Assembly (NCBI GenBank): GCA_013151915.1
Contig: JAADHJ010000045.1
Location: 1 to 41,898 of the forward strand
Reading direction: 5' to 3'
DNA from: Deltaproteobacteria bacterium
Lineage (GTDB): Bacteria > BMS3Abin14
DNA length: 41,898 nucleotides
In this document: positions 8,507-38,591 of the stretch, piece after piece
Layout: each line of letters begins with the position of its first letter
How positions within the stretch are numbered: position 1 is the stretch's first letter
Notes under the pieces: generated by a model
Told to the model about the DNA's origin: nothing
Databases searched by the model: none
Seen by the model: the letters and a program-made list of their open reading frames with translations, nothing else
Translations under genes and position numbers: made by a program

Positions 8507-8523
8507 AGCGTTCTATTGTCCCA

Positions 8524-8662
8524 GGGTCGTAATAAACTGCGGTTGCTTCTGAGGAAAGCGAAAAGTGTCATTTTCACTTTCCTCACAAATCTTCGATTTG
8601 AGCGCCCCTAAATGGGAGCTTTGATGACTTCTGGCGCTTTGATGACTTCTCACGAAGCCATC
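8524..8662 (-). repeat. Multi-hairpin repeat, copy in minus orientation
   Basis: Read on the minus strand, the core from GGCGCTCAAATC to CGCTTTCC (roughly 54 nt) is essentially identical to the 31-kb tandem copies, and the far end retains TTACGACCCT. The first hairpin (8641-8662; GATGGCTT, loop CGTGAG, AAGTCATC) overlaps the end of the GT4 gene and its loop contains that gene's TGA stop. The middle part is diverged. Confidence 0.8.
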
Positions 8663-11045: not shown

Positions 11046-14304
<3,259 letters not shown>

Positions 14305-14308
<4 letters not shown>

Positions 14309-24700: not shown

Positions 24701-25061
24701 TTCATCCTGGAAATGAGTACCTGGATAAAGACCCGACTGGGGAAAAGCTGATTTAACACAGGGTACACGGAGTTACACAGGGTGACGCAGGGTTTATTCA
24801 AAACAATTCTTTTGGCAGGTTTAGTGCGAATCTACCAGGGTCATGAATAAATGCATTACCATCCTTTCTCTGCATGATGGCATGTCCTGTGAAACCCTCT
24901 TTTAAAACCCTGCCTGTCCTGAGCTTGTCGAAGGGTGGAGCAGCCTTCCATGGGCTGCACTGTGATGAGTCAGCTTTTGATCTTAGGGATTGCGTCGCAT
25001 ATTATCGCCTCACAATGACAGGCGGAAGATAAAGGTACACGTTAGCCGGATGAACCTAAAA
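24701..25061 (+). repeat. Composite intergenic repeat, left arm of an inverted pair
   Basis: Read on the plus strand, blocks in order are TTCATCCTGGAAATG, TTAACACAGGGT with GGGTTTATTCAAAAC, AAACCCTCTTTTAAAAC, GGAGCAGCC..GGGCTGCAC, GGGATTGCG..CAATGACAG and AGCCGGATGAACC. All recur in the same order on the opposite strand at 32951-33389. There is no gene in the 24606-25098 gap. The blocks resemble several short intergenic repeats joined together. Confidence 0.8.
24977..25005 (+). promoter_or_regulatory. Candidate promoter for metK inside the repeat arm
   Basis: TTGATC (24977-24982), 17 nt, TATTAT (25000-25005), about 93 nt before metK. The right arm of the inverted pair lacks the TATTAT, so this would be copy-specific. 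No SAM riboswitch structure was recognised. Confidence 0.35.
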
Positions 25062-26247: not shown

Positions 26248-26254
26248 TCATTGA

Positions 26255-27541
<1,287 letters not shown>

Positions 27542-30694: not shown

Positions 30695-31123
30695 ATGACG
30701 GACAGTCGTCTGATTTTCTTCCATGTGGGTGATTGTAGTTTTGCCGTGCCCCTCAATGAGGTCCGAGAGATCGTTGTCGCTGTAGCCGTAACGCCGGTCC
30801 CGGGTTCCAGACCGCCTCTGGAAGGGGTGATGATTTACCAGGGAGAAGGGGTCTTGCCCGTGTTTTCCCTTCTAAGCGCTCTGGGCAGAGCTTCCGAAAC
30901 GGCCGGCGGCCTTGTTGTAGTTTCTGAACTGGGCGGGGTATTTATCGGGTTCAGGGTCGAGGGAATTGGGGGAGTTGTCAAAAGACTGGAGGGAGACCGC
31001 CTGGATAAGTACCAGGATGAATTGAAAGGACGGCCGGGCGCTATTGAAGGGACTTTTGAATCCGGGGGTCGGTCCCTGATCGTTCTTAGCCTTTCTGGTG
31101 TATTTCAGGAAGTGCTGCGTTGA
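30695..31123 (+). CDS. CheW-like chemotaxis scaffold protein 2
   Basis: A 142-residue CheW domain: LIFFHVGDCSFAVPLNEVREIV, GVMIYQGEGVLPVFSLLSALG, IGFRVEGIGGVVKRL and a C-terminal helix SGVFQEVLR. It is 25 nt after the first CheW and clearly distinct from it in sequence. A tandem multi-hairpin repeat begins at the last base of its stop codon. Confidence 0.8.
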   Translation: MTDSRLIFFHVGDCSFAVPLNEVREIVVAVAVTPVPGSRPPLEGVMIYQGEGVLPVFSLLSALGRASETAGGLVVVSELGGVFIGFRVEGIGGVVKRLEGDRLDKYQDELKGRPGAIEGTFESGGRSLIVLSLSGVFQEVLR

Positions 31124-31262
31124 ATGTTGATGGACTTGCAAAGAGTCCATCAACGCGCCCATTGAAGGGCGCTCAAATCGAAGATTTGTGAGGAAAGTGA
31201 AAATGACATTTTTCGCTTTCCGTGGAGCAAAAAGCCATGAATGGACTTTTTACGACCCTATC
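31123..31262 (+). repeat. Multi-hairpin repeat unit, tandem copy 1 (140 bp)
   Basis: Four successive stem-loops: GTTGATGGACT/AGTCCATCAAC (11 bp, 31126-31154), GCGCCC/GGGCGC (31155-31172), CAAATC/GATTTG with a GAA loop (31174-31188), and GGAAAGTGAAAA/TTTTCGCTTTCC (31192-31221). A tail with GGACTTTTTACGACCCTATC follows. No coding potential seen. Confidence 0.92.
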
Positions 31263-31402
31263 AATGTTGATGGACTTGCAAAGAGTTCATCAACGCGCCC
31301 ATTGAAGGGCGCTCAAATCGAAGATTTGTAAGGAAAGTGAAAATGACACTTTTCGCTTTCCGTGGAGCAAAAAGCCATGAATGGACTTTTTGCGACCCTA
31401 TC
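31263..31402 (+). repeat. Multi-hairpin repeat unit, tandem copy 2 (140 bp)
   Basis: A direct, gap-free duplicate of the preceding 140 bp with four substitutions (136 of 140 identical). The changes keep the four stem-loops; the one in stem 1 turns a G-C pair into G-U. Confidence 0.93.
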
Positions 31403-31463
31403 AATGATAGTAGCCTCGAAAAGGTCACTGTTGCGAATTTCACTTGGAGGGGGAGGAGCCCCT

Positions 31464-31469
31464 TATAAT
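31464..31469 (+). promoter_or_regulatory. Candidate -10 element of the receiver-protein gene
   Basis: A perfect TATAAT, 34 nt before the start codon. No good -35 at 16-18 nt; the nearest T-rich hexamer (TTCACT, 31439) is 19 nt away. It would depend on an activator or an extended contact. Confidence 0.35.
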
Positions 31470-31470
31470 T

Positions 31471-31491
31471 CTCCCTGACTGGGCCAGGGAG
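31471..31491 (+). promoter_or_regulatory. Leader hairpin next to the ribosome binding site
   Basis: CTCCCTG (31471-31477) pairs with CAGGGAG (31485-31491). The 3' arm touches the GGAGG ribosome site (31492-31496) of the receiver protein, so the hairpin could limit ribosome access. Confidence 0.35.
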
Positions 31492-31503
31492 GGAGGACCG
31501 CGG

Positions 31504-32835
31504 ATGAAAAAGATCCTGGTAGCTGATGACAGCGTCACTATTCAGAAGGTTATCGCCCTTACCTTTGCCGACGAACCCGTCGAGGTCCAGTCCGTTGGTT
31601 CCGGATCGGATGCCTTGGATAAAATGAAGGAATGGAGGCCTGATATTGTCCTGGCGGACGTCATCATGCCGCGGGTAAACGGGTACGAACTTTGCCGGGC
31701 CGTCAAGGAAGATGAATCCACCAGGGACATCCCTGTACTTCTTCTGGCAGGAACCTTTGAGGCCTTCGATGAGGAGGAGGCAAAGGGCGCCGGGGCCGAT
31801 GACTTCATCACTAAACCGTTCGAGTCGATGGAACTCATCGAAAAGGTCAACGGGCTGTTGGAAAAAGGTACCCCGCCGCCCCCGGAACCTCATGCGCATC
31901 CTGAAGTCCCGCCGCCCCCGGAATCTCATGCGCATCCTGAAGTCCCGCCGCCTCCGGAATCTCATGCGTATCCTGAAGTCCCGCCGGATGCCATCCCGGA
32001 GCCCCCCTCGCCGTCCTTTGGGGATGTCCAGGTGAAAGCCCCTCAGGTCCCTGTTGCGGAGCCTACTTTTGAACCCATTCAGGGTGTCGCCGGCATGGAT
32101 GCCGCCATGGCGACCGCCCCCCCTGGAGGAGGGGCAACTCCAGAACCGGATATCTGGGATATTCTCAGCGAAGCCGATGAGATGAAGCCCGTTGAGGTGC
32201 AGGAACCGGCGGAGGTGGAGACGGACTCCCCATCCATCGGACCGCTGGAGGGTTCCGGCGTTGTGGATTTTGGGAGTTTCGACGTCGGGCTTGACAGGGC
32301 GGAGGAAACCCGGGAAACCGGGATGACTACAGCTCCAGATGAAATCCCGCCGCCCATCGAAGACGCGGTCCCGCCAACCGGAATGCCGTTGGATGCTGAC
32401 GGCGGAAGTAAGATAGAACAACGGGAAAGGAACTTTTTCGGACTCGAGACCGAAAGAACGGAGCCGGAGTTCCTGGATATTTTGGGAGAGGCGGTCGAGG
32501 AAATCACCTTCGATGTTGAGGAACCCGCCCCGCTTGATGTCCAGGAGCCGGCCTCGCTTGATGTCCAGGAACCGACTCCGTTTGATGTCCAGGAGCCCAT
32601 TTCACAGGATGTCAGGGAAGAAGAAACGGGATTCTCCGTTCCGGAACCCATGCTGGATGAGATTCATGAGACGGTAGAGGCTGCTATATCCCAGATTGAT
32701 GATGTCAAGCTCGAGTCAATCATAAGGGAGGTTGTGGAAAAGAGAGTTGAGAAGATCGCATGGGAGGTTGTGCCGGAGCTCTCAGAGATTCTGATTAAGG
32801 AAGCTATCGAGAAAATCAAGGGCGGCGGAGCCTGA
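31504..32835 (+). CDS. Receiver-domain response regulator with disordered Pro/Glu-rich tail
   Basis: 443 residues. The receiver domain (1-120) has KKILVADDSVTIQKV, phospho-acceptor Asp52 (VLADVIMP), Thr84 and Lys104 (ITKPFE). Residues about 123-390 are acidic, Pro-rich and predicted disordered, with three 12-residue repeats (PPPPESHAHPEV) and four 8-residue repeats (DVQEPxxx). The last about 50 residues (IREVVEKRVEKIAWEVVPEL to KEAIEKIKGG) form a helical tail of a type I recall from Desulfobacterota and myxobacterial receiver proteins such as those linked to polarity or motility (e.g. RomR-like architecture; inference). There is no DNA-binding domain, so output is probably protein-protein. 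ATG 31504 with GGAGG upstream is preferred over 31444. Confidence 0.85.
   Translation: MKKILVADDSVTIQKVIALTFADEPVEVQSVGSGSDALDKMKEWRPDIVLADVIMPRVNGYELCRAVKEDESTRDIPVLLLAGTFEAFDEEEAKGAGADDFITKPFESMELIEKVNGLLEKGTPPPPEPHAHPEVPPPPESHAHPEVPPPPESHAYPEVPPDAIPEPPSPSFGDVQVKAPQVPVAEPTFEPIQGVAGMDAAMATAPPGGGATPEPDIWDILSEADEMKPVEVQEPAEVETDSPSIGPLEGSGVVDFGSFDVGLDRAEETRETGMTTAPDEIPPPIEDAVPPTGMPLDADGGSKIEQRERNFFGLETERTEPEFLDILGEAVEEITFDVEEPAPLDVQEPASLDVQEPTPFDVQEPISQDVREEETGFSVPEPMLDEIHETVEAAISQIDDVKLESIIREVVEKRVEKIAWEVVPELSEILIKEAIEKIKGGGA
31873..31980 (+). repeat. In-gene tandem repeat, three 36-bp units
   Basis: Three units encoding PPPPEPHAHPEV, PPPPESHAHPEV and PPPPESHAYPEV differ at only a few positions, so the array is recent and may vary in copy number between strains. 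Confidence 0.9.
32512..32607 (+). repeat. In-gene tandem repeat, four 24-bp units
   Basis: Four 8-residue units: DVEEPAPL, DVQEPASL, DVQEPTPF, DVQEPISQ. More diverged than the 36-bp array, in the linker before the C-terminal helix. Confidence 0.85.
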
Positions 32836-32950: not shown

Positions 32951-33389
32951 TTTGGTTCATCCGGTTAATGCGTACCTTATTGTTTTGCTGTCATTGCGAG
33001 GAGCATCGAGGGAGACGAGAATGACGCGGCAATCCCGGGCGGAGCTGAAAAGGTCAAGAGCTGGTTTACCACGGTGCAGCCCCTCGCAGGCTGCTCCACA
33101 GGGTTTTAAAAGAGGGTTTAACCAGCCTTCGCGTAAAGCTTCAGCTTGACAGGCAGAGGAGATCTAACCATAAGGTCCCGGTTTTAAACTTCGCGAAACC
33201 TCGTTAACTTGTTCTTGACCTGTGCAAAAACAGAAACAAAGTTGTTTCACCGCAAGATACGCCAAGTTGCACCAAAAGAACTGTTTTGAATAAACCCTAT
33301 GTTACCCTGTGAAACTCTGTGCACCCTGTGTTAAGTTAGCTTTTTACAAAATCCGGTCATCCTTCAGGTACCCATTTCCAGGATGAACC
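32951..33389 (-). repeat. Composite intergenic repeat, right arm of an inverted pair
   Basis: The minus strand repeats the blocks of 24701-25061 in the same order, with extra sequence of about 80 nt (roughly 33140-33240). Conserved blocks include TTCATCCTGGAAATG, TTAACACAGGGT, AAACCCTCTTTTAAAACCC, GGATTGCCGCGTC..CGCAATGACAG and ACCGGATGAACC. It fills most of the 603-nt gap before valS, where no gene is supported. Confidence 0.8.
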
Positions 33390-36090: not shown

Positions 36091-36925
36091 ACTTCCCACC
36101 GCCGTCCACCGGCTGATTGATCTGGCGCTGGATGAAGATCTGGGCCCGGGTGATGTAACCAGCGCAGCCCTGATCGGCGCCTGCAATGGGGAGGCGATAA
36201 TAGAAGCGAGGGAAGAAACCGTCGTGTGCGGCATGGGTGTGGCGGAATCCGTTTTCAGAAGGATCGATCCAGCCATCCATTTCAACAGCCTTGCCGTGGA
36301 GGGCGAGACCGCAGTGGGGGGAGATATACTGGCTGAACTCACGGGGCCCGTTTCCTCCCTGTTGGCCGGGGAACGTACCGCTCTTAACTTTATCCAGAGG
36401 ATGTGTGGGGTGGCAAGCCTCTCACGGCAATACGCTGAAAGGGCAAAAAGCAAAGCCGTCGTTCTAGACAGCAGAAAGACCATTCCCGGATGGCGATGGC
36501 TCGACAAGCTCGCCGTTCGGACCGGAGGCTGCCGGAACCATCGTATGGGGCTTTTTGACGGTATCCTGATCAAGGATAACCATATCACGGCCTGTGGTGG
36601 AATCCGCGAGGCGGTGACGAAGGCTCTTCTTAAAGCCCCTCCCGGCCTGACCGTCGAGGTTGAGGTGGATTCACTTGCTGGGGTAAAAGAGGCACTTACG
36701 GCGGGAGCGGGAATCATCATGCTCGACAACTTCACCCCTGACCAGGTTGCCGCCGCCATCCCCGTTGCGGCAGGCAAGGCGCTTATCGAGGTCTCCGGCG
36801 GTATCACCCTGGAAGACATGGATGGGTATATTCAAAGCGGAAAAGTGGACTACATTTCCGTGGGAGCCCTGACCCATTCGGCAGTTTCAAAGGACATCAG
36901 TATGGAGATAACGATGACTTCGTAA
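36083..36925 (+). CDS. nadC: Quinolinate phosphoribosyltransferase (decarboxylating)
   Basis: A 280-residue enzyme making nicotinate mononucleotide from quinolinate and PRPP in de novo NAD synthesis. Visible: [69 protein letters not shown] and EVEVDSL. All are typical. It overlaps valS by 8 nt. The TAA stop lies in the loop of a repeat hairpin, and the last residues (MTS) are repeat-encoded. It is the first of the NAD-biotin-CoA cofactor genes nadC-birA-coaX. Confidence 0.97.
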
Positions 36926-36967
36926 GAAGTCATCGACGCGCCCACTAGATGGATTTACGACCCTATC
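36913..36967 (+). repeat. Multi-hairpin repeat, internally deleted copy
   Basis: The first hairpin is GATGACTT, loop CGTAAG, AAGTCATC (36913-36934). GACGCGCCCA follows as in the full unit, then a deletion joins directly to GATTTACGACCCTATC, the 3' end of the unit. The nadC stop is within the hairpin loop. Confidence 0.75.
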
Positions 36968-36983
36968 AGATAATGAAGGCTCG

Positions 36984-38527: not shown

Positions 38528-38554
38528 CCGAAGGGGAAGCCATGCCCCGCTTGG

Positions 38555-38591
38555 TAAAATGGCTCGAAGAGACTTTTTGCCGGGTTCTCAA
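38555..38591 (+). repeat. 3'-end fragment of the multi-hairpin repeat after coaX
   Basis: Matches the fragment at the kdsA 3' end (14267-14303) at 32 of 37 positions, with AATGGCTCGAAGAGACTTTT as the shared core. It is intergenic. Confidence 0.6.

Follow-up and report, generated by a model that had tools for sequence, protein, structure and literature searches.

A high-copy, probably MITE-like repeat with five conserved hairpins that lies at gene ends in distantly related bacteria

The tandem repeat flanked by a cheW-like and a response-regulator gene in the 41,898-nucleotide stretch of Deltaproteobacteria bacterium DNA analysed here (contig JAADHJ010000045.1, "the window") consists of two copies of an abundant element. 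This element is most probably (probability about 0.8) a non-autonomous MITE-like DNA transposon that is present in high copy, inserts near stop codons and has five hairpins kept by selection, and the pair in the window is best taken as a later duplication. We observe for it a high copy number, a conserved structure with covariation, inverted ends, a 2-bp duplication at its flanks, empty sites in a relative, alignment with stop codons and a bias toward the sense orientation. It appears to be a repeat family common to distantly related bacteria that is unnamed in our searches and has escaped annotation.

The chromosomal surroundings of the pair are ordinary core genes, and the features of the locus are the following:

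30695-31123, + strand: CheW-domain (cheW-like) gene, whose TGA stop codon (31121-31123) lies 3 nt 5' of copy 1
31125-31126: TG dinucleotide left of copy 1, the target duplication, with AA before it as in the family target AA-NN-TT
31127-31264, + strand: element copy 1, TTGATGG...CTATCAA, 138 bp with five hairpins (covariance-model match, E = 3.5e-36)
31265-31266: TG dinucleotide separating copies 1 and 2
31267-31404, + strand: element copy 2, likewise 138 bp, with 97% identity to copy 1 (covariance-model match, E = 9.6e-37)
31405-31406: TG dinucleotide right of copy 2
31444-32835, + strand: response-regulator receiver domain gene, the next gene after the pair (listed open reading frame; it may start later in the same frame)

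The original prediction described a near-perfect, gap-free tandem of 140-bp units that each form four hairpins, with substitutions that preserve pairing. The tandem is as described (direct copies at 31123-31262 and 31263-31402, 97% identical), and comparison with other copies of the family sets the element ends at the 138-bp limits listed above, TTGAT...ATCAA, with TG before, between and after the two copies. The number of hairpins has to be corrected to five, with an imperfect one at 31228-31252 as the fifth. All four differences between the units are indeed neutral or favourable for pairing; read directly, two are in unpaired positions, one changes a G-C pair to G-U, and one restores a C-G pair at the foot of hairpin 5. 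One unit has a predicted folding energy of -57.6 kcal/mol versus -30.4 +/- 3.5 for shuffled sequences (z = -7.9). The identity of the pair stands at the 99.7th percentile among all pairs of copies, and the remaining tandem neighbours are 88-92% identical to one another; the window pair is most likely a later local or tandem duplication of one inserted copy, and elements seem usually to stack by insertion at 2-nt spacing. We note that the response-regulator gene itself has short tandem repeats at 31872-31986 (36-nt units) and 32512-32607 (24-nt units), which would give repetitive linkers in its protein.

The five hairpins lie in series in each copy and, in copy 1, are placed as follows:

31127-31153, + strand: hairpin 1, which holds the left terminal inverted repeat and a palindrome of its own
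31155-31172, + strand: hairpin 2, GCGCCC-loop-GGGCGC
31174-31188, + strand: hairpin 3, CAAATC-GAA-GATTTG, in a shortened form
31192-31221, + strand: hairpin 4, GGAAAGTGAAAA-TGACAT-TTTTCGCTTTCC, a 12-bp stem and the most conserved part of the element
31228-31252, + strand: hairpin 5, imperfect AAAAAGCC...GGACTTTTT, which holds the right terminal inverted repeat

The length of the element is about 137-157 bp. Hairpin 3 is 35 nt long in the ~157-bp form, which is found in the host genome and in other genera, and its inside has been lost in the 138-bp form; hairpin 5 of the window pair has the imperfect form AAAAAGCC..GG-A-CTTTTT. Among 48 copies, mainly from the host's family, two-sided changes are found at 18 of the 52 pairs, versus 4.9 after shuffling and at most 8 when the structure is slid along the alignment, although the conservation of hairpin 4 is overstated in this set, in which many copies were retrieved by exact matching within that hairpin. 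Compensatory changes are present in all five hairpins. Copies from distant genomes keep the same order of five hairpins with largely rewritten stem sequences, and when they are folded one by one the minimum is five serial hairpins in most, not all, of them. When the distant copies are aligned by fitting them to the model, covariation is found at 47 of 52 pairs, and the score is 0.56, versus 0.17 after shuffling and no more than 0.11 after sliding; these A3 counts depend on the structure-fitted alignment, which also contains 12 weak matches on the reverse strand. Variation among host copies is 0.038 at paired positions and 0.196 at unpaired ones. G-T exceeds A-C at paired positions by 100:32 in alignment A1, 31:4 in genome G101 and 24:6 in G118, an excess that points to the sense strand as the folded one and of which much is carried by a few columns.

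A covariance-model search and a copy count had been proposed as a check on the original prediction, and an absence of both further copies and compensatory changes, or a match to a known REP, BIME or Rfam family, as evidence against it. The covariance-model search finds 51 copies in the sister species and, up to its scoring limit, at least 150 full-length ones in the host, with relatives across further genomes, and the covariation just described is strong. The window and the distant copies have no Rfam match at the gathering score, and the element lacks the anatomy of GTAG- or CGTC-tagged REPs. In the host genome BLAST gives 57 matches, the end motif TTGATNNNNTCGYAAAAAGTC is matched at 470 places with at most 2 mismatches (at 0 for the reversed control), and the element makes up 1.5% of 842 kb sampled. 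By BLAST the element is present in 11 of the host family's 12 genomes and in 0 of 49 genomes of other families. The covariance model matches nine of ten further genomes of the host's family, four of them with at least 120 copies, and also one Mariprofundaceae genome; in a set of 61 genomes around this one, matches are found in 25, of which several have dozens of full-length copies, and not in the other 36. Phage, plasmid and viral collections gave no match to the element, and a search of the literature by sequence string gave neither a match nor a published name. Because several contigs of the host assembly (C22, C30, C39, C43 and C59 of G000) terminate within copies, arrays of the element probably interrupt the assembly, and the genome probably has more copies than were counted.

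The terminal inverted repeats, TTGATGACTTCGCAAAAAGTC and TTGATAGGGTCGTAAAAAGTC, are imperfect (TTGATNNNNTCGYAAAAAGTC in the host). Both ends change jointly between clades, for example to AGCCTGTCGCAGAATG and AGCCCGTCGCAGAATG in G118, as is expected if one protein binds both. The flanks of 115 clear-ended copies have the form AA-NN-[element]-NN-TT(GA), with A at positions -4 and -3 in 92 and 83 copies and T at +3 and +4 in 62 and 78. Flanking target duplications had also been suggested as something to look for, and one of 2 bp is found: the two NN agree in 42 of the 115 copies versus 11.2 expected (shuffle maximum 22), and in 34 of 85 versus 7.4 expected when tandem neighbours are left out, although the exact duplication is present in only 37% of copies. 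It is plain in the distant genome G099, where the dinucleotides are varied (TC..TC, AG..AG, GG..GG). In the sister species collinear sites are empty of the element (flank identity mostly 80-92%), and the junctions at these empty sites fit best with the loss of 2 or 3 bp. Short size, inverted ends, 2-bp target duplication and presence or absence between relatives are together those of a MITE, and we conclude firmly that the element was mobile in the past. The proposal that the repeat family is mobile or RNA-structured, for example a non-autonomous element, is thus supported by its copies, covariation, inverted ends, duplication and empty sites.

The tips of the element, TTGA..., ATGA... or TAG... 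according to clade (often TAG in G118), are or contain a stop codon. Of the host genes that run into the left end, 9 of 14 stop exactly at the TGA of the element (p = 0.017 versus 1/3). In G099 nearly all entering genes end exactly at the tip, and they do so from both sides, so that in convergent pairs both genes end there. Because the element starts with the same letters in which the target ends, TTGA or ATGA, the host gene retains its stop; in one comparison with the sister species (case 62) the gene end is unchanged apart from TAA becoming TGA. The nearness of host copies to stop codons is no greater than short operon spacers predict, and targeting of stop codons judged by distance alone was discarded for this reason; only the exact frame alignment goes beyond chance. 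Copies between co-directional host genes are 58 in sense and 21 in antisense orientation (p = 4e-5), those in named contigs of related genomes 22 and 8 (p = 0.016), and those in the sister species 7 and 4, which is not significant. Genes were called with a simple purpose-made codon-score finder, so their starts are uncertain and their stops less so.

These features suggest the following model. An enzyme acting in trans would insert the element at AA-NN-TT(GA)-like sites and duplicate NN, and a gene ending at the target would retain a stop codon, the tip being or containing one. Because the tip would supply the stop, insertions at gene ends would be nearly harmless and would pile up between genes, including those within operons. 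The end of the element together with the duplicated NN would rebuild the target, allowing further elements to stack with 2-nt spacing. The five hairpins of the transcribed strand would be selected either because folding of this strand aids movement or because a folded insert is tolerated in mRNA. The enzyme and its chemistry are inferred, as is the reason for the internal structure. A plain MITE needs no conserved internal hairpins, and the strongest signal is therefore partly unexplained by the model. If the five-hairpin RNA or single strand were itself part of the mobility machinery, needed by the enzyme for placement at stop codons, the conservation of internal hairpins, beyond the ends, across distant bacteria would be explained; we consider this extension of the model unlikely.

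The part of the genome and the transposase families examined yielded neither an autonomous element nor a transposase that has the ends of the element. Two inward-facing ends 0.5-5 kb apart, as expected of an autonomous copy, were sought in the sampled DNA, and no size class above about 210 bp was seen. The rve and DDE_Tnp_1 transposases of four genomes are few and none has element ends. IS30 transposases are absent from most of the element-rich genomes tested and, where present, are not flanked by element ends, although an IS30 partner may be lost or lie in unsequenced DNA. The mobilising enzyme may have been lost, may be of another family or may be encoded by the host. An alternative is that the element is a REP/BIME-type repeat mobilised through single-stranded DNA by a RAYT (an HUH tyrosine transposase), with folding of one strand needed for mobility. 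The host does have two intact Y1_Tnp genes, the G-T excess makes one strand appear folded, and stop-supplying ends and a position after genes are reported for GTAG REPs (PMC3733652). We nevertheless regard this as quite improbable: few columns supply much of that excess, HUH transposition is not expected to give a target duplication, and a repeat of 137-157 bp with five hairpins and no GTAG or CGTC tag in its consensus is not of REP type. Moreover, the two host Y1 genes carry inverted repeats of their own, unrelated to the element (GGGGACGTAGTTAAG... and TGGGGTCAAAGCTC...), as in TIRtrons, no Y1 gene in the host's family is flanked by the element, and neither G007 (133 matches, though the genome is 80% complete) nor G008 has a Y1_Tnp hit; RAYT and TIRYT enzymes were rejected as the mobiliser on these flanks. 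The repeats of the host Y1 genes (L086 and L087) are perfect or near-perfect, 27-28 bp long, and start with GGGGACG and TGGGGTC, like those of published TIRtrons.

Strong covariation in every hairpin, the sense bias and the placement between operon genes would also be expected of a cis-acting RNA element (a 3' end stabiliser, attenuator or processing site) selected for host gene regulation, with mobility secondary. This is very unlikely, since host copies are free to vary outside the stems and many are partial, many collinear loci have no shared insertion site in the sister species, and the neighbouring genes in the window are of no common class. The resemblance of the target half-sites to the element's own junction, ATCAA-NN-TTGAT, could point instead to a site-specific recombinase, of serine type or similar, that integrates a circle at a two-base core, NN then being a shared crossover and not a duplication. 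However, NN varies widely within G099 (TC, AG, CC, GG, CG, GA), unlike a fixed crossover dinucleotide, and a scan of the fetched DNA for the serine recombinase motif, a weak test, gave no match; we find this hardly credible.

The MITE-like transposon that we favour shares features with several known systems. Prokaryotic MITEs include Correia, Chunjie of Geobacter uraniireducens, QMITE and ERIC (reviewed in PMC10969869), and like them the element is under 500 bp and mostly intergenic, with inverted ends, a short target duplication, many partial or internally deleted copies, and stable hairpins in transcripts. Unlike them it has five hairpins in fixed order that covary among very distant hosts, its ends serve as stop codons, and no related IS was found; this degree of internal structural conservation is unusual for a MITE-like element. 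It was set apart from Correia, ERIC and Chunjie by their descriptions. With the GTAG/CGTC REPs and BIMEs it shares high copy number, palindromic structure, a position mostly 3' of genes and ends that can give stop codons, but REPs are 20-40 bp long and carry a GTAG or CGTC tag that is not seen in the element, and the text on REPs in PMC3733652 does not mention a duplication such as the 2-bp one found here. TIRtrons, which are tyrosine transposase (TIRYT) genes with inverted repeats (PMC3733652), resemble the element in having a family of inverted, possibly self-complementary ends, although those of the host's Y1 genes are other than the element's. Its 2-bp duplication, near-palindromic target and 2-bp spacer between ends are like those of the IS30 family, even though the transposase survey above did not connect the two. 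IS30 elements give a 2-3-bp target duplication, use near-palindromic targets and form joined ends with a 2-bp spacer.

The element provides a clear example of mobile DNA with tips that also act as stop codons, which lets it fill gene ends at little cost, and its internal RNA-like structure is under selection. This raises the question of which enzyme moves it and whether that enzyme reads the structure. Such repeats matter for the assembly of metagenome-derived genomes, in which contigs can end within copies, and for RNA discovery, in which they can mimic conserved non-coding RNAs.

Further copies and fragments are present in the window:

8523-8633, - strand: nearly full copy, flanked by two glycosyltransferase genes and in sense orientation to each
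14248-14303, + strand: related element end that codes the C-terminal residues of a kdsA-like open reading frame (DAHP_synth_1 family)
26251-26271, - strand: solitary right-end motif in the metK / ahcY interval
36911-36969, + strand: copy with an internal deletion that joins the left hairpin to the right end; it overlaps the nadC end
38536-38591, + strand: second copy of the related end at 14248, 3' of a type III pantothenate kinase gene

Four relatives of the tandem had been named in the window; those at 8524 and 36913 are the nearly full and the internally deleted copy above, and those at 14267 and 38555 share only the terminal repeat. The C-terminus of the kdsA-like protein is coded by the remnant of such a related end (14248-14308). 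Many host copies are partial, with sequence outside the stems that varies freely; solitary ends and short forms of ~49 bp, in which hairpin 1 is joined to the right end, make up a second size class. At three loci (L063, L044 and L067) the copies are composite, with an extra hairpin 4-5 module inserted or fused within the element. The window also contains, at 24701-24984 and 33050-33387, two inverted intergenic repeats unrelated to the element; they have arms of 73, 50 and 46 nt that are 78-88% complementary and runs similar to ACAGGGT, and are probably another dispersed repeat.
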